NCBI GenBank assembly: GCA_017559825.1
Contig: JAFYQR010000223.1
Location: 1 to 64,000, forward strand
Origin: Thermoguttaceae bacterium
GTDB taxonomy: Bacteria > Planctomycetota > Planctomycetia > Pirellulales > Thermoguttaceae
Length of the DNA: 64,000 bases
Direction of reading: 5' to 3'
Shown one piece after another: positions 5,109-17,210 of the stretch. The notes below the pieces were generated by a model. It worked only from the letters and a program-made list of their open reading frames with translations, ran no database searches and was not told the origin of the DNA. The position numbers were made by a program, and so were the translations under genes. Within the stretch, counting starts at the first letter, position 1; the number at the start of each line of letters is the position of its first letter.

Positions 5109-6479
5109 ATGACGTCGCAACTCCAAGACGCGCCTCAAACCCCGTCGACCGAAACGACCCTCGTTACGAGCGAGCAATTCATCGCGCTGGAACGGGCCCG
5201 GTTGGAAAAATGGGCGTTTTCGCTCCGAGAACGCGAAGACGCGCTCGATCGCCGTTTCGGCGTTTTGAACGCCCGCGTCGCCTCGCTCGAGGGAGCGGCT
5301 CGACGTTGCGCCGAGGAAACGGCGGAGGTTCGCGAACAAGCCGTCGAGCTTGAAGCGGTCGCCGAAGAGCAAGCGCAAATCGCGCTCCGACTCGACGCTC
5401 GCGCCGCCGAGATCGAATTGGCGAACGCCGAAAGCGCCGAGTCGACGCGCCGAGCCGCCGCGTTGCGGGCCGACGTTGAAACGCGAGAGCGCCGAGCCGC
5501 CGAAACGGAACGAACGCTCGAACGGCGAACTCGCGAACTCGCCGACAAAGAGCGCGAGCTCGGGTTGAAATTCGACGAGCGCGAACGCGTTCTCGGCGGC
5601 AAACTCGACGAGCGCGAACGAACGCTCGCCGTCCGCGAGCTCGAACTCGACGAAAAGGAACGAGCGCTCGACGCGAAAGAGCGAACCGTCGCGCAAAAAG
5701 AGCGAACCGCGACCGCCCGGCTCCGCGAACTCGACGCCCGCGAGCTCGATTTCGGCGAAAAAGAGCGAGCCGTCGCGCAAACGGAACGAACGCTCGCCGT
5801 CAAAGAACGCGAAATCGACGAAAAAGAGCGAGCCGTCGCGCAAAAAGAGCGCTCGCTCGTTTCGAAAGAACGCGAAATCGACGAAAAAACGCGCTCGCTC
5901 GAAGCTCGGGAACTCGAATTCGCCGCCAAGGAGCTCGAAGTCGACGAAAAAGAACGCCTCGCCGACGAAAAAGAACGCGCGCTCAAAATCCGCGAGCGCG
6001 AACTCGAAGCGAAAACGCTCGAAATCGGCGCGAAAGAGCTCGAAATTGACGAAAAAGAGCGAACGCTCGGCGAACGAACTCGCGAGTTCGGCAAGAAAGA
6101 GCGCGAACTCAACGTTCGCATTCTCGCCTTCGACGCGAAAGCGCTCGAAATCGACGAAAAGGAACGGACGTTCGGCGCCAAAGAACGCGCGTTCGGCAAA
6201 AAAGAACGAGATTTCGACGAAAAAGAACGAACGTTCGGCCTCAAAGAACGCGAGTTCGACGAAAAAGAACGCCAATTCGGCGAAAAAGAGCGAGCGTTCG
6301 GCGTCAAGGAACGCGAATTCGGCGAAAAAGAGCGCGAACTCGACGCCAAAGAGCGCGAGTTCGACGAAAAGGAACGCGAGTTCGGCGAGCGCACTCGCCG
6401 CGCTTTCGAAACGCTCCGCAACCAACGCGCGATTTTGCTTCAGCTGCGCCAAGAAATCGAACGCGAAGCCGCCGCTTGA
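5109..6479 (+). CDS. Long heptad-repeat coiled-coil protein (KER-repeat)
   Basis: The protein has 456 residues. ATG 5109 follows GAAGGAG by about 5 bases. After a ~30-residue nonrepetitive start, nearly the whole chain is helical and highly charged. From about residue 140 to 440 it is built of seven-residue units of the form K-E-R-x-x-x-x, where the last four vary (ELDE, AFGV, EFGE, TLAV), so KER recurs in strict heptad register. It ends with a helix QLRQEIEREAAA. There is no signal peptide, membrane segment or catalytic motif. It is likely a cytoplasmic structural or scaffolding rod. The 21-bp DNA periodicity leaves all antisense frames open; those are artefacts. No named family is claimed. 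Confidence 0.85.
   Translation: MTSQLQDAPQTPSTETTLVTSEQFIALERARLEKWAFSLREREDALDRRFGVLNARVASLEGAARRCAEETAEVREQAVELEAVAEEQAQIALRLDARAAEIELANAESAESTRRAAALRADVETRERRAAETERTLERRTRELADKERELGLKFDERERVLGGKLDERERTLAVRELELDEKERALDAKERTVAQKERTATARLRELDARELDFGEKERAVAQTERTLAVKEREIDEKERAVAQKERSLVSKEREIDEKTRSLEARELEFAAKELEVDEKERLADEKERALKIRERELEAKTLEIGAKELEIDEKERTLGERTREFGKKERELNVRILAFDAKALEIDEKERTFGAKERAFGKKERDFDEKERTFGLKEREFDEKERQFGEKERAFGVKEREFGEKERELDAKEREFDEKEREFGERTRRAFETLRNQRAILLQLRQEIEREAAA
5529..6399 (+). repeat. 21-bp coding repeat underlying the KER heptads
   Basis: The DNA is a degenerate 21-bp tandem repeat (core AAAGAACGCGAA/GAGCGC with a variable 9-bp part). The copies are similar but not identical, which suggests old duplication plus selection on the heptad register. 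Boundaries are approximate. Confidence 0.6.
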
Positions 6480-6934: not shown

Positions 6935-9121
6935 ATGCCGACAATCCGTTCGACGCGAGCCGCCGTTTTCGCCGCGATTTTCTTCGTTTTCGGGAGCGGA
7001 GCGTTCCTCCCGAACGCCGTTCTTCTCAACCGCGCCGCCGGATTCGCGCAAGACGCCGCCGTCGAAACGCTCGACGCGGACGCGACCGTTTCCGCCGAGC
7101 CGACCGGCGATTCCCCGTTCGTCGCGCCGTCGCTCCTCGACCCGTTCGCTTCCGATCCGTTCGGCGGCGACGCGACCGCCGCGGGCGCCGACGCGAGCGC
7201 GCCTCTTTCGGTCGCCGCGCAAATCGCTCCGGCTCCGGAACTCGCCGAACTCGCCGAATCGGAACGCAAGCTCGTCGGTTTTTTGACGCTGCAAACGACC
7301 GTCGCGCCCGGTTGGCACATCTATTCGCCGACGCAAGGGGACGGCGGTTCCCCGACGAAAATTTCGGTCGACGCCGAGCCGGCGTTCGAAGTCGGCGCGT
7401 TTCGCCTCGCGACCCCCTTTAAGGTCGTCGAATCGACCGGCTTTTTACTTGAAGAACTGACCGGAACCGCCGACTGGATCGCGCCGATTACGGTCGCCGC
7501 CGACGCCGCGCCGGCCGACGTCGCCGCTTTCCTCGGAACGCTTAAAGCGACCGGCAAAGTCGACGCGCTCGCTTGCTCCGACGGCGAGGGCGGCTCCTGC
7601 TTCCCGCAAAACGTCGAGTTTACCGCCGCTTTCGACGCGTCCCGCGACGCCGCGCCGATTTGGGCCGCCGCCGAAAAACTCGCGCCCGTTTCCGACGACG
7701 CCGTCAAAAACAACGCGGTCGCCCAAACCGTCGAAACCGACGCCGACGACGCCGTCCCCGTCGAAAAGACGAGTTTCGCGTCGCGCCGTTTCGCGCTTTT
7801 GCTCCTTTACGCGTTTTTGGGCGGGCTCATTTTGAACGCGACGCCTTGCGTTTTGCCGGTCGTCGGGCTGAAGATTATGTCCTTTTTCGACCAAGCCGGT
7901 CAAAAGCGTTCGAAGGCGTTTATGTTGAACGTTTGGTATACGCTCGGCGTTTCGGTCGTTTTCTTCGCGCTCGCGTTCGCCAGCGTTGGATTGAGTTTCC
8001 TCTTCACTCGGGCCCTTTTCCAAGTCTTGATGAGCGTTATCGTTTTCGCGTTGGCGCTGAGCTTGATGGGGCTTTGGGAGCTGCAAGCTCCGTCGTTTTT
8101 GGGCGGACAAAAGTCGAACGAGCTGACGTCGAAAGAGGGCTCCGTCGGCGCGTTCTTTAAAGGGCTGATTACGACGCTTCTCGCGATCCCCTGCGGCGCT
8201 CCGCTTTTGAGTCCGACGCTCGACTGGGCGGCGGAAACGGCGCGACAGGGCGAAATCGGTTTGGTCGTCGTCGTTTACTTGGTCATCGGCGTCGGGATGT
8301 CGTCTCCGTTTTTGCTCGCGGGCGCGTTCCCGGAACTGTTGAAATTTTTCCCGAAACCGGGCGTCTGGATGGATACGTTCCGCAAGACGATGGGTTATTT
8401 CCTCCTAATCGCGGTCGCTTGGATCCTTTACTCGGCGCCGCTCGACTACCAGCTTCCGACGGTCGCGCTCCTCTTCGCGATTTGGTTCGCTTGTTGGAAT
8501 ATCGGGCGCAACCAATTCGAATACGGCCCGGACGCGTTCAAGAAGAAGGCGACCGGCTGGGTTGTTTCGGCGCTTGTCGTCGCCGCCGTCGTTTTCGCGT
8601 CGTTCGACTTCCCGGGCAATCCGTTTGAAACGACGCTCCGTCCGGCGGTCGAAAAGAAGATGCTCCGTTGGGCCGAGCGCGCCGAAAAAGCCGGGCTCTT
8701 GGCCGCCGAAAAAGAAAAGCCTTGGCGCCTCTTCGACCGCGCGACGCTCGACGCCGAGCTCGCCAAAGGCCGCGTCGTCGTCGTCGACTTCACCGCCGAC
8801 TGGTGCGTCAACTGCAAGTTCCTTGAAAAGACGATTCTGCATACGCCGGAAGCGCTCGACGCGCTCTCCGCTCGCGGCGTCGTTACGATGACCGCCGACT
8901 GGACGAACCAAGACGCGCAAACGCCCGACGTCTTGGCGATCAACGAACTCCTCGACGCGACCGGCGCCCGGCAAGTCCCGAAACTGATGTTTTTCTCGCC
9001 GGGCGACCCGGAAAATCCGGTCGTTTTGAGCGGCCTTTACTCCGCCGACAAGTTTTTCGAAACGCTTAACCAAGTCGCGCCGGAAACCGAAAAATCGCAA
9101 GCCGAAACGCCGAAAAAATAA
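6935..9121 (+). CDS. dsbD: DsbD-type thiol:disulfide interchange protein
   Basis: The protein has 728 residues in the DsbD three-domain layout: signal peptide (1-~38), periplasmic immunoglobulin-like alpha domain (~85-255), multi-helix membrane beta domain (~285-550), and C-terminal thioredoxin gamma domain (~600-720). DsbD carries electrons from cytoplasmic thioredoxin to periplasmic partners. The redox cysteines are in place: membrane C305 (TPCVLP) and C420 (AIPCGAP), and the thioredoxin pair WCVNC at 623-627. The alpha-domain segment PGWHIYSPTQGDGGSPT matches the family substrate-side fold, and DALACSDGEGGSCFPQ looks like its cysteine-bearing loop. The first 80 residues after the signal are low in complexity (Ala/Asp). 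GGAG precedes ATG 6935. The specific client proteins are unknown. Confidence 0.92.
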   Translation: MPTIRSTRAAVFAAIFFVFGSGAFLPNAVLLNRAAGFAQDAAVETLDADATVSAEPTGDSPFVAPSLLDPFASDPFGGDATAAGADASAPLSVAAQIAPAPELAELAESERKLVGFLTLQTTVAPGWHIYSPTQGDGGSPTKISVDAEPAFEVGAFRLATPFKVVESTGFLLEELTGTADWIAPITVAADAAPADVAAFLGTLKATGKVDALACSDGEGGSCFPQNVEFTAAFDASRDAAPIWAAAEKLAPVSDDAVKNNAVAQTVETDADDAVPVEKTSFASRRFALLLLYAFLGGLILNATPCVLPVVGLKIMSFFDQAGQKRSKAFMLNVWYTLGVSVVFFALAFASVGLSFLFTRALFQVLMSVIVFALALSLMGLWELQAPSFLGGQKSNELTSKEGSVGAFFKGLITTLLAIPCGAPLLSPTLDWAAETARQGEIGLVVVVYLVIGVGMSSPFLLAGAFPELLKFFPKPGVWMDTFRKTMGYFLLIAVAWILYSAPLDYQLPTVALLFAIWFACWNIGRNQFEYGPDAFKKKATGWVVSALVVAAVVFASFDFPGNPFETTLRPAVEKKMLRWAERAEKAGLLAAEKEKPWRLFDRATLDAELAKGRVVVVDFTADWCVNCKFLEKTILHTPEALDALSARGVVTMTADWTNQDAQTPDVLAINELLDATGARQVPKLMFFSPGDPENPVVLSGLYSADKFFETLNQVAPETEKSQAETPKK

Positions 9122-9255: not shown

Positions 9256-10143
9256 ATGTCGTCGAACCGCGCCGCGCTTGAAGAACTCCGTTGGCAAAAA
9301 TTTCCCGTGTTGAACGACGGTTTCGTCGCGCTCGTCGACGCGATGGGCGACGACGCGGCGATCGCCCAAGCGGCCCGCGTCAGTTACGGCGCCGGAACCC
9401 GTTCCGTCTCGGACGACCGCCAACTCATTCGCTATTTGGCGCGACACCGACACACGACGCCTTTCGAAATGGCGGAAATCAAGCTCCTCGTTCGCGTTCC
9501 GATGGACGTTTGGCGCCAATGGATACGCCACCGCAGCGCGTCCGTCAACGAATATTCGACGCGTTATTCCGTCGCCATCGACTCCGCGCACACGACCGCT
9601 CCGGACGGTTGGCGCCGTCAAGCGACGACGAACCGCCAAGGAAGCGAAGGCGCCTTCGACGCGGAAATCGGCGCCGAGCTGACCGCCTCCGAAGCGGCGT
9701 TCCAACGCTCCGCTCGCGAACTTTACGAACGCCGCGTCGAACTCGGCGTCGCTCGCGAACAGGCGCGCAAGGACTTGCCCCTTTCGACTTACACGGAGGC
9801 CTATTGGAAGATCGACCTGCACAACCTCTTCCATTTCCTTAGTTTACGAATGGAGAAACACGCGCAGCTCGAAATCCGCGAGTACGCGACGACGATCGGC
9901 GAAAAGATCGTCCGCCCTTTGTTTCCGCTCGCTTACGACGCGTTCGTCGATTACAACCTCGGCGCTCAAACGCTTTCGCGGCTCGAACAGGAGACGATCG
10001 CCCGCTTAGCCGCGACGAAAACGCTCCCGGCGAGCGTCGCCGATTTCCTCGAATGCGGCGACCCGAGTTGGCGAGGGCTCGAACGTTGCCGCGAACGGGA
10101 CGAAGCGCTCGAAAAGTTGACGCGTCTCGGCCTCGTTCGCTAA
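9256..10143 (+). CDS. thyX: FAD-dependent thymidylate synthase ThyX
   Basis: ThyX makes dTMP from dUMP using methylenetetrahydrofolate, NADPH and FAD. The diagnostic signature RHRSASVNEYSTRYS lies at residues 91-105, matching the RHRxxSxNExSxRYS motif, and HTTPFE at 66-71 is the conserved loop before it. At 295 residues it is slightly longer than typical ThyX proteins (~220-260), with an extended C-terminal helix. A gene start with GAAAGG seven bases upstream of ATG 9256 is convincing. The presence of ThyX suggests that the organism may lack ThyA, but that cannot be told from this window. It is transcribed alone between dsbD and the FlgG-like gene. Confidence 0.95.
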   Translation: MSSNRAALEELRWQKFPVLNDGFVALVDAMGDDAAIAQAARVSYGAGTRSVSDDRQLIRYLARHRHTTPFEMAEIKLLVRVPMDVWRQWIRHRSASVNEYSTRYSVAIDSAHTTAPDGWRRQATTNRQGSEGAFDAEIGAELTASEAAFQRSARELYERRVELGVAREQARKDLPLSTYTEAYWKIDLHNLFHFLSLRMEKHAQLEIREYATTIGEKIVRPLFPLAYDAFVDYNLGAQTLSRLEQETIARLAATKTLPASVADFLECGDPSWRGLERCRERDEALEKLTRLGLVR

Positions 10144-10291: not shown

Positions 10292-11683
10292 ATGCAACGC
10301 CGTCCTCTTTCCCCCATTCTCTCCATATTGCTCGCAACGCCGATTTTAACGCCGTTCGACGCGTTTGAAACGCCGTTTCAAGCGTTCGCCGTCGGGCCAA
10401 TCGCCGCGCAAGAGCCGCTCGCGACCGACGACGAAGACGCCGAAATCGATTTTCAACTCGTCGCGCCCGGCGAATTCGATCTCGCTCCGGACGACGCGCC
10501 GACGCTCGAAATCGACGCCGACTCCGACGACCGCCCGGCGATTCCGCTCGCCGTCGAGCCGTCCGAAAGCGCCGTTCCCGACGTTTTGGAAGCGGAAACG
10601 GTCGACCCCGCCGAAATGGAGCGGTTGTCGCGAGACCCGTTGTTTCAAGAGTTTTCCGCCGCGTTCGATCAAGCCGCGCCCCTTCCGTCGCTCCCGAACC
10701 TCGACGCGCTCAACGCCGAACGAGAAGCCGACGCGCTCCTACAAACCGGCGGCGCGCAATCGTCGACCTTTCCCGCTTCCCCCAATTTAACGCCGAACGC
10801 CGCCGAAAAACTCGCCGCGCTCGACGAAGTTTTGGCGATCGCCGCCGTCGACCTCGACTCGCTTGCCTTATCGGAGTCGGAACGAGCGATTTTGACGCGA
10901 CTCGACGCCGAAATCGCGCGGCTCGCGCCCCTTTGGCTCGACGCCGAGTTGAATCGGAACGTCGTCGGCCGTCGCGAACGCGTTTGGGAACGCGCCGAAA
11001 CGCCTGTTTCCCTTAATTTCGCCAATTCGCCCGAAACCTTCAATCTCTCCGAAACGCCCGGTCGCCCGCTTTTCGCGCGTCCCGCCGTCGCCGAACGCTC
11101 GACCGGCGTCCGATTCGAAGTAAACGACCCGAAACCGGTCGCGTCGGTGTCCGATTGGGCCCTCGCTCCGGCGGCTCCGTTCTTCTTTGAAGTTTCCGAC
11201 CCGACGACCGGCGACGTTTTTTACACGAAGGCCGGCGACTTCGAGCCGTTCGAGGGGGGCGCGGCGCTCGTTCGCGGCGACCGAATCTTCGTCGCGACGG
11301 TCGAGCCGGGCCCGAACGCGGCGTCCGGGCGAGCGGAGCGAATCCGAATTTTGAAAAACGGCCAAATTCAGGGCGTCGACGCGACCGGCAAACGGATTAT
11401 CGCCTTTAATATCGGAACGTTTTCCCTTTACTTATTCGACAATCCGGCGCGTTTGGCGTCCGTCGACGGCGTTTTCTTCGTCCCGACGGCGGAATCGGGA
11501 GAACCGCGCCCGGCGAAACTCCCGCCGAACGCGGAAATCGGCGTCGAGTCGGGCCGTTTGCTCCTTTCGAACGGTCGTCCGGACGAAATTTTCGCGCGCC
11601 TCGTCGTCTTGTGCAAGTCGAAAAAGCGGCTCGTCGAAATTTTGACGCAACCGCGCCTCCAAACGGAAACGCCGACGCGCTGA
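10292..11683 (+). CDS. Exported protein with a FlgG/FlgE-like C-terminal domain
   Basis: The protein has 463 residues. ATG 10292 follows AAGGAG by about 7 bases. Residues 1-40 look like a signal peptide, and 41-285 are acidic, low in complexity and rich in Asp, Ala and Leu. Residues ~289-452 align by eye with the conserved core of flagellar rod/hook proteins: LAPAAPFFFEV (family LAxxGxGFFxV), FYTKAGDF (YTRxGxF), then a dG-x-V-like segment, LYLFDNPARLASV (FxNPxGL), FFVPTAESGEP (xxxTxxSG) and GRLLLSNGRPDEI (family G-x-LE-x-SNV). The N-terminal rod motif (NIANVNTxGFK) of true FlgG/FlgF is missing and no flagellar genes are nearby. It may be a repurposed envelope protein; the exact role is unknown. 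Confidence 0.75.
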   Translation: MQRRPLSPILSILLATPILTPFDAFETPFQAFAVGPIAAQEPLATDDEDAEIDFQLVAPGEFDLAPDDAPTLEIDADSDDRPAIPLAVEPSESAVPDVLEAETVDPAEMERLSRDPLFQEFSAAFDQAAPLPSLPNLDALNAEREADALLQTGGAQSSTFPASPNLTPNAAEKLAALDEVLAIAAVDLDSLALSESERAILTRLDAEIARLAPLWLDAELNRNVVGRRERVWERAETPVSLNFANSPETFNLSETPGRPLFARPAVAERSTGVRFEVNDPKPVASVSDWALAPAAPFFFEVSDPTTGDVFYTKAGDFEPFEGGAALVRGDRIFVATVEPGPNAASGRAERIRILKNGQIQGVDATGKRIIAFNIGTFSLYLFDNPARLASVDGVFFVPTAESGEPRPAKLPPNAEIGVESGRLLLSNGRPDEIFARLVVLCKSKKRLVEILTQPRLQTETPTR

Positions 11684-11990: not shown

Positions 11991-14900
11991 TCATTCCACC
12001 GCGTCGCCGCTCTTCGCGCTTTCCGTTTCGCGCAACTCGAACGTTTTTTCGCGCCGAATTTCGACCGGGCCGAAGAGACCGGACTCCGCCGAGCCCTTAT
12101 AATTCGACGGCAAATCGGCGTAATAGTTTGCCAACGTGTTGAAAACGACGACTTCAAGCCGGTTTTCGCCCGGTTTCAGCGCGTCGGAAACGTCGAGCCG
12201 CCAAGGCGACGTCGGCAAATCCCCAACTTCGCGACCGTTCAAGAAGACGCGGCAACTTGCGCTAACCTTGCCGAGTTCAAGCCAAACGCGCTCGTTTACG
12301 CCGTCTTCGCCGCTTTCCCAAACGAACGTTTTCCCGTATTTTACGCCGCCCGAATAACCGGCTAAGACGCCGCGACCGTTCCAGTCGCCAAGTTCCGCCG
12401 TTCCGACGCCGCAATCCAACCGAATCGGTTCCGGGAAGACGGCGCCGCCGCAAACGCCCGGTTCCGGCTCGATTTCGAGCGCGACGGTCGCCGCTCGTTC
12501 GAACGGCTCGGCGAATTTAAGCGTTTCCCAACGAATCGTTCGTTCGGAAAACGCCGCGAAAACATTGTTCGCCGCCGCGTCGCCTTCCGTTCCGGAGCGT
12601 TTGCCGCGCCAAAAATCTTTTCCGGCGACGCCGACCGATTTCCGTTCGCAACTCGCCGGGTCGACCGGTTTTCCGTCGACGACGACCGACTTCAACGCGC
12701 CGCGCAACGGAATCGACGCGCCGTTCCAACCCGGAGGCGCGACGAAGCGGAACCAATACGTCGGACGCGCCGTCGTTCCGAAAACGTCGAAGTCGAGAAC
12801 GCCGGGCCGGTCGAACCAAACGGTCGAAAGGGGCGTTCGTTTCCCGGCGACCGTCGCGGCGCGGTTCGCCGCTTCGTCGTTCCAAGCGCCGTTATCCGTT
12901 CCGTTCTCGACGCGAAGCGCCGTCGAAACGTCTTGTCCGTTCTTCTTATTTTCGCCGTTTTCACCGTTCTCGGCCGCCGTTCGAGCGACGAACGCGAACG
13001 AACGCCGTCCCGACGCGTCGTATCGGAGCAAAATCGGCGATTTCGCGCCGTCGTTCGCGACGACGAGCGCCGTCGACGCGTCGTTGAAGTCGAATCGTTT
13101 CCCGTCGACGAAAAGCGCGCCCGGAGCGTCGCCGCCGACGCAAACGTCGACCGGAACCGCCGACGCGCCGCCGACTTTGCCGGTTTCAACGGTTTTACCG
13201 CCTTTAACGCCGTCGTTACCGCTCGCCGGAGCGTTCGCGACCGCCGCCGTCGACCAAAGGTAATAAATCGAACCGGCTTCTTCCGGCGCGAAAACGGTCT
13301 CGTTGAGCGCGCCCGCGTTCTTCCCGAGCCCAATGAAGCGCGAGTCGATCCGCTCTTTCAGCCCGTGATACCCTTGGCGCCCCGGGTTTCCTTCGATCCC
13401 CCAACGCCAAGAGAAGCCGAGCTGCGCCCAGCGGAACTCGCGCCCGTCGACGACGACCGGAACGCTCGGGTCGACCGTTCGCAACGCCGCCAATTTCGCG
13501 TCGAGCGCCGCGACGTCGACGTCCGCCGGGAACGGGCCGAGCCGCCAAAACTTTTGCCCGAAATCGCAAAGAACGCTTTGCGCTCCGTCGAACGACGGCG
13601 CCGCGCCTCGCGCCTTTTGCTCGTTTTCGCTATTCGCCTTATCTTCGCCGTTCCGCGCCGTTTCGCCGACCGTCGCGACGCAGTCGAACCGCCGCGCCTC
13701 CGCTCCGAGCGTTTCTTCGGAAATCGGGAGCCGGAAGTCGCCGAACCGGTTGTTCAACGTCGGCGCGACCTCGAACGACCATTCGCCGTCGAGTTTCAGC
13801 GGCGCGACCGTTTCCGGCGCCGTCCCGACGAGCGTTCGTTTCGAACCGTCGACGGTCGTCAGCCGAATTGTTTTTTGACGATTTTGCGGGTTTTGCGCTC
13901 CGTCCGCCGCCGTTTTCGCCGTTTCGGCGCCTCCCGCGAACGCTTTCGCCGTCCAACCGCCGTTTTTCGCGTCGAAATTCAACTCGGCGATCTCCGCGAC
14001 GTCGGTTTCGAGCGCGGTCAAACGCCGCGTCGGCTTTTCGTTCTTCCAAAAGACGACGATTCCGGCCTCCGTCTTCTCAAACGGCCAACGGAGCGTCGTC
14101 GTTCCGACGTTCGGGCCGTCGTTCGTTTCGAACGCTTCGACAACTTCGCGCCGCGAACCGTCCCAAGCGTTCCAAAATTCCGCGCGACCTTGCGCCGGGA
14201 AGTTCAGCCAAGCGCCCTTGGCGCCGCGCATAACGAAGAACAGTTCCGCGTCCGCCGACGACCGCCGCGACGCCGCGCAAGGGGCGCCGGTTTTCGCGTC
14301 GAACACGTCTTGTCGGAAACGGCCCAAAAATTCGTTAAGGTTCGCCCAAAGCGCCGCGTCTTGCCCGCCGTTCGCGTTCCCGCCGCCGGTCGCTTCGGAG
14401 TTGACGCCGGTTCGGTGCAGGACGTGAACGTTCCAAACGTCGACCGGTTTTGTCTCGGCAAGATCGGTTCCGAGCCGCCAAGCCTTCGCCGCCGTCTCTT
14501 TATTTTGCGCGTCTTGTCCATTTTCCGCTTTTTGCGCCGTTTTCGCATTCGGCCCGACGAGCGAATACCGGAAATCGACCGTCGACGCGACCGTCTTCCC
14601 GTCCCGAACGAGCGCGACGAAGAACCCGGCGGAACCGCGGCGCGGCGAGTCGGCGTCGCGACCGTCGATCGTCAAAACGTCGCCGTCTTTCAGCGTCAGC
14701 GTTCCGCTCCACCCGCCGGAATAATCGGCGTTATCGCAAATTTTTCGCTCGCCGACGTAAAGCGCCCCGGCGTTGTCGCAGAAGAAACGAACCGCAACCT
14801 CGACCGGCTTATCGCCCAAACCGTTCGCGACCCATTTGAAGAAAACGTTCTTTTCCAGCTCGGAACTCCAAGCCCAACGCCCTTCGAAGCCGCCGTCGTA

Positions 14901-17210
14901 CCGCCGAATCTTCGACAGTTCGCCGCTTTTCCCGACGAGCGTTCCGTCTTCCGCAGCTTTATTTTGCGCGAGCTCGCTATTTTCGCCGTCTTCGCTAAAC
15001 TTCGCCGAAATCAACGCGCCGACGCCGCCCTTTTCGTTCGTTCGAACGGTCGAGCGTTTCCCGGCTTTCGCTTCGGCGGCGGTCAGTCCGAAAATTTCGC
15101 GAACCGCCGCGTCGAGCTCGGCGTCCTCGCGCCCGGCTCGGTCGGACGCTTCCGGCAAGGCGTCGAGCGCGACGACCGTCCCGCCGGCGCGGTAAAATTC
15201 GAGCGCTTTCGCCAACGTCGACCAACGAATCCCGCGCGACGCCGGCAAAATAAGGACGCGGTGTTCCGAATCGCCGATAAGGAGCCGCGCGCCGTCGACT
15301 TTCGCCCGTTTCAGCGAATCGTCGTCGACGAAAAGAACGTCCCGCCCGGTCGCGTAAATTTTCTCGGCGGCGGCGAACGCGACGGAGCGCGAACGATCCC
15401 CGTCGAGCCGCGCTTGGTACGACGTCACCGGGTACAAGACGAGGAAATCGGCCCGCTGAACGCCGCGAGTCAGCGCGAACGACGCTCGCTCAAAGTACTT
15501 CAAAAACGCGCCGAACGTCTCCCAATAAGGTTGGCGGAAGTGATAGCAAGGGGGCGCCCATTCCCAAAAACCGCCGTAAGTCGTGTAATACAACCCGTGC
15601 AAATTCAACAGGTTCGCGCCGAAGAGGAAGTTTTCGTTCGACGCGAAAAGCAACCGCTCCGGCGTCGCGCCCCAACCGAACGAGTGATACCCTTCGAGCC
15701 AAACGCGGGGCCGTTTGTAAAAATGCGCGATCGACGCCGAAACCTTGCATTTGATAAAATCGGCGCGACCGCCCGGGGTGTCGTGTCCCGGCGACGTGTA
15801 CCAACGAGTCGCGCTGAAATAATCGCCGAACTCGACCGGATTCTTCCCCCGCCCCATCGAGTCGCAAGCGTAAATCCGCCCTTTCGACGCGTGCCAATCG
15901 AAAATCGGACGGAAATACCGTTCTTCGGCGAGGCGCACCCGAATATCGGCGAAATCGATTCGATCTTTCTCCGTTCGCGTCCCGACGTCGGCGTCGAAAA
16001 CCGCCGGAAGCGCCGCCCAAAGCGGATAGCCCTTACGCGCGGCGAAGACCTCGGCCAAGTCGTCGGCCCAAATTCGCTCGCCGGTTCCGAGTTGCAGTTC
16101 GTCTTGAAAGAAGTAATTCAGCCCGAGCGTCGTTTCCGGCCCCGTCGTTCTTACCTTCTTTTCCGAAACCTCCTTGTTCTCCGCGTCCGCTTTATTCTTC
16201 CCAGCTTTCCCTTTCTTCGTTTCTTGCGCAAGGGTCGCCAACGTCCGCGTTTCAAACGGTTGGAAGAAACGTTCGACAACCGTCTTCCCAGCCGCCGGGT
16301 GCAAAGGATTCAACGTTTGCGGAACGCGCCGCGCCTTGAAGAACCAAATTTCGACCTCGTCGCCGTCTTTCGCCTCGTCGATTTTAGCGATTTCAGCGAT
16401 TTCAGCGTTTTTATCGCCCGTCCTCAATGCTTCTACGTCCGTTCCAAGCGCGACGAAACGTTTCGCGTCGAGCCGCCCGCCGTCGCCGACCGGGTAAGCG
16501 ACCGTCTGAACGAGCGTATCGTTCGCCGTCGACTCTAACGATTTTAACGTTTCCAACGCCGCCAACGGCGTCGCGAATCGACCGTCCGCGTCGACTTTCG
16601 CCCGCTCTTTCGCCGCGACGTAAAGGGTTCGGCTTTGCAACTCCGCGTCGCGATAAATCAAGCGGTCGAAGAGGTTCGTCGGCGAATTTTGCCAATCGAG
16701 CGTGTATCCGCTGAGTCCGACGCCCATCCCGAGTTCCCGACAGCGCGCCGCGACGGCGTCGAACGCGTCGAACCATTCGGGCGTCAGCGGTTCCGGGTCG
16801 TTCGGGTAAGTCAACCAATTCGGTTGTTTTTCGCTGCGGACGTCTTGGTGCGCGTAATTGATTTGGACGCCGGAAATCCCGCCCTTCTTCGCCAATTCGT
16901 CGATTTGCCAAAGAAGTCGCTCGGCGTCGAGCTTTTCCCCCGTCCACCACCAAAACGGAACTTCGCCGTATCCGGTCGGCGGCGTCGCGAATCCGGTTTT
17001 CCAATCGATTGCCGCGTCCGCCGCGAACGCGGAAACGTCGCCGAACGCCTTCGCGTCCCAAGCCGTCGAGTCCGACGCCTTGCTAATCGTCCGCGTTGCC
17101 AGCCCGTCGTTCGCCCAAACGTCGAACGTTCCGCCAAACGCCGCCGTTAAAATCAACGCGACCGTCAAAGCCGCCGTTTTACGTCGCCATCGTTTCCGCA
17201 CAATTTTCAC
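11991..17210 (-). CDS. Very large exported GH106-type alpha-L-rhamnosidase
   Basis: The protein has 1739 residues with signal peptide 1-~33 (MKIVRKRWRRK then a hydrophobic core ending VWA). The catalytic region begins about residue 55 with PPTGYGEVPFWWWTGE and WQIDELAKKGGISGVQINY, which is how GH106 rhamnosidases open, and continues with a TIM-barrel-like region. The C-terminus (last ~200 residues) contains a GVLAGYSGGVKYGKTF segment and a jelly-roll carbohydrate-binding-like end (RVFLNGREVGDLPTSPWRL, LEVVVFNTLANYY). GH106 enzymes remove terminal rhamnose from plant or algal polysaccharides. The length far exceeds the usual ~1000-1200, partly because of many Asn/Gly/Glu/Lys-rich inserts. It has its own promoter and terminator. 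The family call is by motif; substrate specificity is not known. Confidence 0.8.
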   Translation of the reverse strand: MKIVRKRWRRKTAALTVALILTAAFGGTFDVWANDGLATRTISKASDSTAWDAKAFGDVSAFAADAAIDWKTGFATPPTGYGEVPFWWWTGEKLDAERLLWQIDELAKKGGISGVQINYAHQDVRSEKQPNWLTYPNDPEPLTPEWFDAFDAVAARCRELGMGVGLSGYTLDWQNSPTNLFDRLIYRDAELQSRTLYVAAKERAKVDADGRFATPLAALETLKSLESTANDTLVQTVAYPVGDGGRLDAKRFVALGTDVEALRTGDKNAEIAEIAKIDEAKDGDEVEIWFFKARRVPQTLNPLHPAAGKTVVERFFQPFETRTLATLAQETKKGKAGKNKADAENKEVSEKKVRTTGPETTLGLNYFFQDELQLGTGERIWADDLAEVFAARKGYPLWAALPAVFDADVGTRTEKDRIDFADIRVRLAEERYFRPIFDWHASKGRIYACDSMGRGKNPVEFGDYFSATRWYTSPGHDTPGGRADFIKCKVSASIAHFYKRPRVWLEGYHSFGWGATPERLLFASNENFLFGANLLNLHGLYYTTYGGFWEWAPPCYHFRQPYWETFGAFLKYFERASFALTRGVQRADFLVLYPVTSYQARLDGDRSRSVAFAAAEKIYATGRDVLFVDDDSLKRAKVDGARLLIGDSEHRVLILPASRGIRWSTLAKALEFYRAGGTVVALDALPEASDRAGREDAELDAAVREIFGLTAAEAKAGKRSTVRTNEKGGVGALISAKFSEDGENSELAQNKAAEDGTLVGKSGELSKIRRYDGGFEGRWAWSSELEKNVFFKWVANGLGDKPVEVAVRFFCDNAGALYVGERKICDNADYSGGWSGTLTLKDGDVLTIDGRDADSPRRGSAGFFVALVRDGKTVASTVDFRYSLVGPNAKTAQKAENGQDAQNKETAAKAWRLGTDLAETKPVDVWNVHVLHRTGVNSEATGGGNANGGQDAALWANLNEFLGRFRQDVFDAKTGAPCAASRRSSADAELFFVMRGAKGAWLNFPAQGRAEFWNAWDGSRREVVEAFETNDGPNVGTTTLRWPFEKTEAGIVVFWKNEKPTRRLTALETDVAEIAELNFDAKNGGWTAKAFAGGAETAKTAADGAQNPQNRQKTIRLTTVDGSKRTLVGTAPETVAPLKLDGEWSFEVAPTLNNRFGDFRLPISEETLGAEARRFDCVATVGETARNGEDKANSENEQKARGAAPSFDGAQSVLCDFGQKFWRLGPFPADVDVAALDAKLAALRTVDPSVPVVVDGREFRWAQLGFSWRWGIEGNPGRQGYHGLKERIDSRFIGLGKNAGALNETVFAPEEAGSIYYLWSTAAVANAPASGNDGVKGGKTVETGKVGGASAVPVDVCVGGDAPGALFVDGKRFDFNDASTALVVANDGAKSPILLRYDASGRRSFAFVARTAAENGENGENKKNGQDVSTALRVENGTDNGAWNDEAANRAATVAGKRTPLSTVWFDRPGVLDFDVFGTTARPTYWFRFVAPPGWNGASIPLRGALKSVVVDGKPVDPASCERKSVGVAGKDFWRGKRSGTEGDAAANNVFAAFSERTIRWETLKFAEPFERAATVALEIEPEPGVCGGAVFPEPIRLDCGVGTAELGDWNGRGVLAGYSGGVKYGKTFVWESGEDGVNERVWLELGKVSASCRVFLNGREVGDLPTSPWRLDVSDALKPGENRLEVVVFNTLANYYADLPSNYKGSAESGLFGPVEIRREKTFELRETESAKSGDAVE

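Follow-up and report, generated by a model that had tools for sequence, protein, structure and literature searches.

How does a domain of the flagellar rod come to reside on an apparently exported protein encoded outside any flagellar operon? This question is raised by a locus of a Thermoguttaceae bacterium (phylum Planctomycetota; assembly GCA_017559825.1), located in the first 64,000 nucleotides of contig JAFYQR010000223.1, the stretch analyzed here in full and denoted the window. An open reading frame (ORF) at positions 10292-11683 of the forward strand encodes a 463-amino acid (aa) protein with a predicted Sec-type signal peptide and a C-terminal domain related to the flagellar distal-rod protein FlgG. 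We compared this FlgG-like protein with its relatives in g1, the genus of the window genome (G000; 20 genomes), and in genera g17 (4 genomes) and g366 (7 genomes). These genomes lack rod and hook proteins of the standard families and encode a reduced flagellar export core.

The FlgG-like protein contains a rod-type beta domain

Profile-profile comparison with hhalign of 10 orthologs of the FlgG-like protein against 14 FlgG proteins of flagellated Pirellulales yielded an alignment of 155 columns spanning residues 290-454 (98.6% probability, E = 9.7e-16). The score of this alignment was 115.1, compared to 15.0 +/- 2.8 (maximum 23.8) for 60 column-shuffled controls. Residues 285-463 alone scored 115.0, whereas the portion before residue 285 scored 13.7, which is background. 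In searches of the single sequence against hidden Markov models (HMM), the same region matched NCBIfam TIGR03506 (FlgEFG; E = 1.1e-7) and PRK12636 (FlgG; E = 3.4e-7), both under the curated cut-offs (for the FlgG and FlgEFG models, 30.1 vs 350, 23.9 vs 252.75, and 31.8 vs 70.25 bits); the match to the Pfam FlgE/F/G D1 domain was weak as well (14.8 bits, cut-off 27), and a sequence search of the Protein Data Bank with the 463-aa protein gave no match. The order of conserved blocks typical of flagellar rod and hook proteins, which the original prediction had read from the sequence, is thus recovered by both hhalign and HMM matches, at residues ~290-454.

For residues 105-463, AlphaFold2 gave a model of modest quality (mean predicted local distance difference test score (pLDDT) 61; predicted template modeling score 0.45), with the beta domain modeled at a pLDDT of about 65-85. 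When this model was compared to known structures using Foldseek, all 34 matches at E <= 1e-3 were flagellar rod or hook structures, rod structures being the best (E = 2.7e-8); for the crystal structure of FlgG D1 (6jf2), the template modeling score normalized by target was 0.61-0.66. Rod and hook families therefore stand far above background in both the profile and the fold comparison. The C-terminal domain is a FlgG/FlgE-type beta domain, as supported by sequence, profile, and fold, and its nearest relative is the rod protein FlgG rather than the hook protein. The suggestion that a hook-like beta fold had been reused in an envelope or surface protein accordingly stands with regard to the fold type and its presence on a Sec-type protein, but not with regard to the hook.

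The match to FlgG also includes the first part of the C-terminal helix (SNGRPDEIFARL, aligned with SNVEPV.ELIDLI), so that not all parts outside D1 have been lost. At the other end of the protein, the N-terminal polymerization motif is gone, as originally proposed: the N-terminal rod motif family PF00460 (Flg_bb_rod) has no match in the protein in a Pfam search, and the N-terminal half scores at the hhalign background. The helical segment ending in LWLDAELNRNVVGRRERVW occupies the position of the N-terminal helix of the rod protein, a correspondence without profile support. By eye, LPGAKARRPFLFA in the g366 protein and LNRNVVGRRERVW in the window protein look similar to the rod motif TPGYKARR; homology is not claimed because hhalign leaves this stretch unaligned and the N-terminal half is at background.

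The N-terminal half is acidic and starts with a Sec-type signal, both as originally described (Table 1). The signal was read by eye, and its layout is repeated in the orthologs, with Kyte-Doolittle maxima of 1.9-3.0 in a 10-residue window; Sec-type N-termini were read in all three lineages (g1, g17, and g366). The predicted placement in the envelope or at the surface rests on this reading. The acidic segment varies in length between orthologs, and the family-specific block that follows it has an alignable trace in the g366 orthologs.

Table 1. Features of the FlgG-like protein and its upstream neighbors in the window
Feature	Position	Strand	Evidence
DsbD-like thiol:disulfide interchange protein, two genes upstream	6935..9121	+	Pfam DsbD_TM and thioredoxin; conserved in g1
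ThyX (thymidylate synthase), upstream neighbor	9256..10143	+	Pfam PF02511; conserved
Putative Sec-exported FlgG-like protein, 463 aa	10292..11683	+	ORF and translation; orthologs; dN/dS
Predicted Sec-type signal peptide, residues 1-39: basic start, hydrophobic stretch, PIAA followed by QE	10292..10408	+	read by eye from sequence
Acidic low-complexity segment, residues 40-104	10409..10603	+	24 D/E vs 1 K/R in residues 41-110
Conserved family-specific block EMERLSRDPLFQEFSAAFDQAAPLP, residues 105-132	10604..10687	+	S113, P116, F118, E120, F121 invariant
Helical segment ending in LWLDAELNRNVVGRRERVW	10874..10993	+	W215, A218, N221, G226, R228, W232 invariant; helix predicted
FlgG D1-type beta domain, residues 285-425: FFFEV, FYTKAGDF, FDNPARL, TAESGEP	11144..11566	+	HMM, hhalign, AlphaFold2, Foldseek
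C-terminal helix SNGRPDEIFARLVVLCKSKKRLVEILTQ, residues 426-454	11567..11653	+	aligned with start of FlgG C-terminal helix (hhalign reaches 454); helix predicted

Rod, hook, and motor are missing, and the export core is reduced

With Escherichia coli queries, no flagellar genes were found in the rest of the 64-kb window. The original observation that no such genes are nearby is correct for the window; the genome as a whole, however, encodes FliI, FliP, FliQ, FliR, and a portion of FlhA at a contig end. Across the family, PF00460 was detected in 64 of the 119 genomes, compared to none of the 20 g1 genomes, and FlhA in 115 of the 119. TIGR03506 (FlgE/F/G) was not detected above the cut-off in any of 27 genomes of g1, g17, and g366, whereas all five flagellated controls were positive, with several matches each. 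A concatenated E. coli query was run against 13 genomes without a rod (hereafter, rodless) and three flagellated controls. FliM and FlgI had no match in the rodless genomes tested (n = 13 for FliM) and were both found in all three controls; a FliN-like match in G115 was weak (E = 4.9e-4) and unconvincing. With the same query, FliI, FliP, FliQ, FliR, and FlhB were detected in the flagellated controls and also in rodless genomes, with some of these genes missing from individual rodless assemblies.

Upstream of fliI, the relatives carry fliH together with genes for a short FliG-like protein and a FliF-like protein. The YscJ_FliF domain was identified above the Pfam cut-off in four proteins, and FliO and FliH were above the cut-off as well. 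The FliG-like proteins examined in g1 and g17 consist of FliG_N and FliG_M only, with no C-terminal (torque) domain above the cut-off. FlhB is truncated: in the rodless relatives, it covers only positions 2-239 of the 335 positions of the Pfam profile, and the proteins, 236-281 aa in length, end just before the NPT autocleavage site, so that the docking domain is gone. Translation of the DNA downstream of the short flhB in three genomes revealed no continuation; the FlhB of the flagellated control G034 is 361 aa long and contains NPT.

Two additional features of these clusters were observed. In g366, the C-terminus of a FliF-like protein is fused to a FliG middle domain (L127:10727-12916). Furthermore, an Omp85/BamA gene adjoins the reduced fliF/fliG-fliH-fliI cluster in both g17 (G548, L129:2416-6483) and g366 (G583, L127:13581-17045); the two proteins are 51-54% identical, and this synteny might be due to chance.

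In the phylogenetic tree of FlhA (a quick IQ-TREE reconstruction with SH-aLRT, an approximate likelihood ratio test, as the only support measure), g1, g17, and g366 form one rodless clade (support 97) that adjoins the rodless genera g12 and g365. Another rodless group, g9, g10, g357, and g358, is nested within flagellated genera, and therefore, the rod was probably lost more than once. In this second lineage, FlhB is likewise short (253-276 aa) and cut at about the same place, and FliG looks longer than that of g1. Contigs of this apparently independent lineage (L206, L207, and L208, from G539, G095, and G099, respectively; genera g9, g10, and g357) retain fliF-fliG-fliH-fliI and fliO-fliP-fliQ-fliR-flhB-flhA, not all of these genes being visible on each contig; the fliK-flgD-flgE-motAB-fliN stretch, which lies between these blocks in the flagellated G543, is missing. 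The FlhA proteins of g9, g10, g357, and g358 (L180-L184) match the profile in two pieces separated by ~45 unmatched positions, which suggests a missing or diverged linker segment. In G099, CheW-like, CheA/CheY-like, and CheY genes are located beside the rodless export operon (L208:1702-6209), where rod and hook genes were not detected.

All assemblies of g1 are fragmented and only 65-91% complete, and one could argue that these bacteria possess a complete flagellum, the rod and hook genes being missing solely through incomplete assembly. This is extremely improbable given that PF00460 is absent from each of the 20 g1 genomes and that FliM and FlgI are also absent from all the rodless genomes tested, in which export-core genes were found. 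Moreover, FlhB is truncated within a gene whose downstream DNA can be read, and the second-lineage contigs hold the export operon without the fliK-flgD-flgE-mot-fliN stretch.

Distribution and conservation of the FlgG-like gene

A homolog scan of one genome per species (84,980 species), which detects close relatives only, identified the FlgG-like protein in gut and rumen planctomycetes (Thermoguttaceae or uncultured planctomycetes). Profile searches of the family detected full-length relatives in about 17 of the 20 g1 genomes, some split by contig ends, and shorter, divergent relatives in five of the seven g366 genomes; one of the four g17 genomes (G548) encodes a full-length relative. These counts come from listings and are partly affected by contig breaks. 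The identity to the g17 ortholog is 27-29%, and the window genome contains a single copy. Across the profile searches of the family, order, and phylum, the FlgG-like family was found in rodless genomes only. The original prediction had pointed to homologs in other planctomycetes and to the flagellar status of their hosts: proteins of the same type do occur in g17 and g366, and the hosts are rodless but possess the export core. Other matches did not belong to the family. The ~270-aa matches in other Pirellulales, for which the frames were read, are ordinary FlgG; the phylum-level matches, judged by frame length and matched region only, appear to be ordinary flagellar proteins; and the L014 match from the first scan shares just the short stretch LWLDAELNR and is unrelated.

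The gene order DsbD-like - thyX - FlgG-like is retained in g1, and the order thyX - FlgG-like is shared with g366, which supports orthology. In the relatives, then, the gene lies next to thyX and the DsbD-like gene rather than inside a normal flagellar operon. Among close orthologs, the ratio of nonsynonymous to synonymous substitution rates (dN/dS) is 0.22-0.30, indicative of purifying selection. This bears on the notion that the gene is a functionless, decaying remnant of the lost flagellum. The fast divergence, down to 27-29% identity with the g17 ortholog, and the patchy detection among relatives would fit decay, but the frame is open and free of stop codons in most genomes, dN/dS is about 0.29, several blocks contain invariant residues, the signal peptide is common to the three lineages, and the genomic position is conserved. 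We thus consider such a remnant very unlikely.

Other genes in the vicinity include a 1739-aa alpha-L-rhamnosidase-like glycoside hydrolase (GH106; 11991-17210, minus strand), a downstream neighbor kept in several orthologous loci, and a 456-aa protein that contains long coiled-coil repeats of the ERE/EKERE type (5109-6479, plus strand), for which the only Pfam match is the RNase Y N-terminal coiled coil.

A possible role in the cell envelope

Taken together, these observations suggest a stripped flagellar base turned to non-motile use. Our preferred interpretation, which we hold to be somewhat better than an even bet, is that the protein is a Sec-routed descendant of FlgG with a function in the envelope, in a cell where the flagellar export core persists. 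Under this scenario, the ancestor of the 463-aa protein would be the distal-rod protein FlgG, and the lineage would have lost the rod, hook, rings, and motor while retaining an inner-membrane export core that consists of FliF, FliG minus the C-terminal domain, FliH, FliI, FliO, FliP, FliQ, FliR, FlhA, and FlhB minus the C-terminal domain. In Salmonella, a gate-recognition motif docks rod and hook subunits on the C-terminal domain of FlhB (PMC8983047). Without this docking domain, a rod subunit would no longer have access to the usual type III pathway, and the loss might be connected with the appearance of a Sec signal on the sole detected rod descendant. The signal would deliver the protein to the periplasm instead, a predicted location that follows from sequence features, and the FlgG-type domain would serve there as an envelope part. 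The likeliest partner would be the reduced FliF/FliPQR core, with the FlgG descendant acting as a collar, cap, or short conduit; this partnership is possible, but we deem it doubtful. Less likely still is the bolder possibility that gut planctomycetes harbor a new and minimal export machine that derives from the flagellum but has no rod, motor, hook, or FlhB docking domain, and to which one clade adds a Sec-rerouted rod subunit on the periplasmic side, so that the outer part bypasses the machine.

Several observations weigh against the preferred interpretation. The other rodless genera with FlhA (g9, g10, g12, g357, g358, and g365) yielded no FlgG-like match even at E = 1, and in the thyX loci fetched from these genera, thyX is followed by other genes, not by a FlgG-like gene. 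The FlgG-like protein is thus missing from several genomes with the export core and, therefore, is not needed by the core; universal co-occurrence of the two is rejected on the same grounds. In most genomes, the export-core genes are unlinked to the FlgG-like gene, and in two, they are 25-36 kb apart on the same contig. The evidence for FliF, FliG, and FlhB comes from relatives rather than from the window genome itself, the assembly of which is fragmented, with FlhA cut by a contig end. Finally, the signal peptides of the family were judged by eye.

A serious rival is that the FlgG descendant is unrelated to the export core, being an independent structural or adhesive protein of the periplasm or outer envelope that reuses the stable beta domain of the rod. 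Such a role agrees with the lack of linkage to export-core genes, with thyX and the DsbD-like gene as the conserved neighbors, with the absence of the gene from several rodless genomes that retain the core, and with an acidic, disordered N-terminal half that includes a family-specific conserved block. However, all genomes in which the family was found possess the core but no normal rod, and the ancestral part, the rod, normally sits on the export core. Weighing both sides, we regard independent reuse as rather unlikely, if well worth considering.

Reconstructions of how flagella gave rise to injectisomes generally rely on a single ancient event. Within the one family studied here, flagellated members exist side by side with two or more groups that have lost the motor, the axial parts, and the FlhB docking domain but retain the export core; therefore, the step from a flagellum to something else can be observed among close relatives. 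If the preferred interpretation is correct, the FlgG-like protein would be a rod part that survived through a changed export route, and if the minimal machine exists, its part outside the membrane would not be exported by the machine itself.

Comparison with known systems

We found no description of the FlgG-like protein or of a rodless planctomycete export core in the open-access full texts searched. About 70% of the genomes of digester Planctomycetota are reported to encode core flagella proteins, and a search within that report revealed no such reduction (PMC11929135).

Among known proteins, FlgG (TIGR02488/PRK12636; structures 7cbm and 6jf2) is the best profile and fold match, sharing the D1-type beta domain, the same order of blocks, and the start of the C-terminal helix. 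The window protein differs in having a predicted Sec signal, an acidic N-terminal half, and a shorter C-terminus, and in lacking the N-terminal rod motif; in addition, it scores far under the FlgG cut-offs and is encoded outside any flagellar operon.

With respect to the export core, the flagellar-type FliI, FlhA, and FliF of Chlamydia (PMC2830194) are similar in that a bacterium without a flagellum, from a related phylum, has a few flagellar export genes. Chlamydia, however, also has a full injectisome, and a FlgG-like exported protein is not mentioned in the abstract of that source. The basal bodies of Buchnera are a non-motile, remodeled flagellum in which the export gate and the rod genes are kept (PMC8109811); the lack of motility and the retention of the gate are shared, whereas the retention of the rod genes is the reverse of the situation in the rodless planctomycetes.

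The rodless planctomycetes fit the definition of a non-flagellar type III system in encoding FlhA/B, FliPQR, and the ATPase without flagellar axial parts, and depart from it in lacking the FlhB/SctU autocleavage domain. A parallel in this respect is the secretin-less non-flagellar type III system of Myxococcales, an export core without FlgBCDEK, FlgH, and MotAB (Abby and Rocha 2012, PMC3459982): in both cases, the export core is retained, and the flagellar axial and motor parts are lacking. Unlike the Myxococcales system, the planctomycetes keep FliF and part of FliG, have an FlhB without the C-terminal domain, and encode a putative Sec-routed relative of FlgG, and their FlhA clusters with the FlhA of flagellated bacteria from their own planctomycete family.
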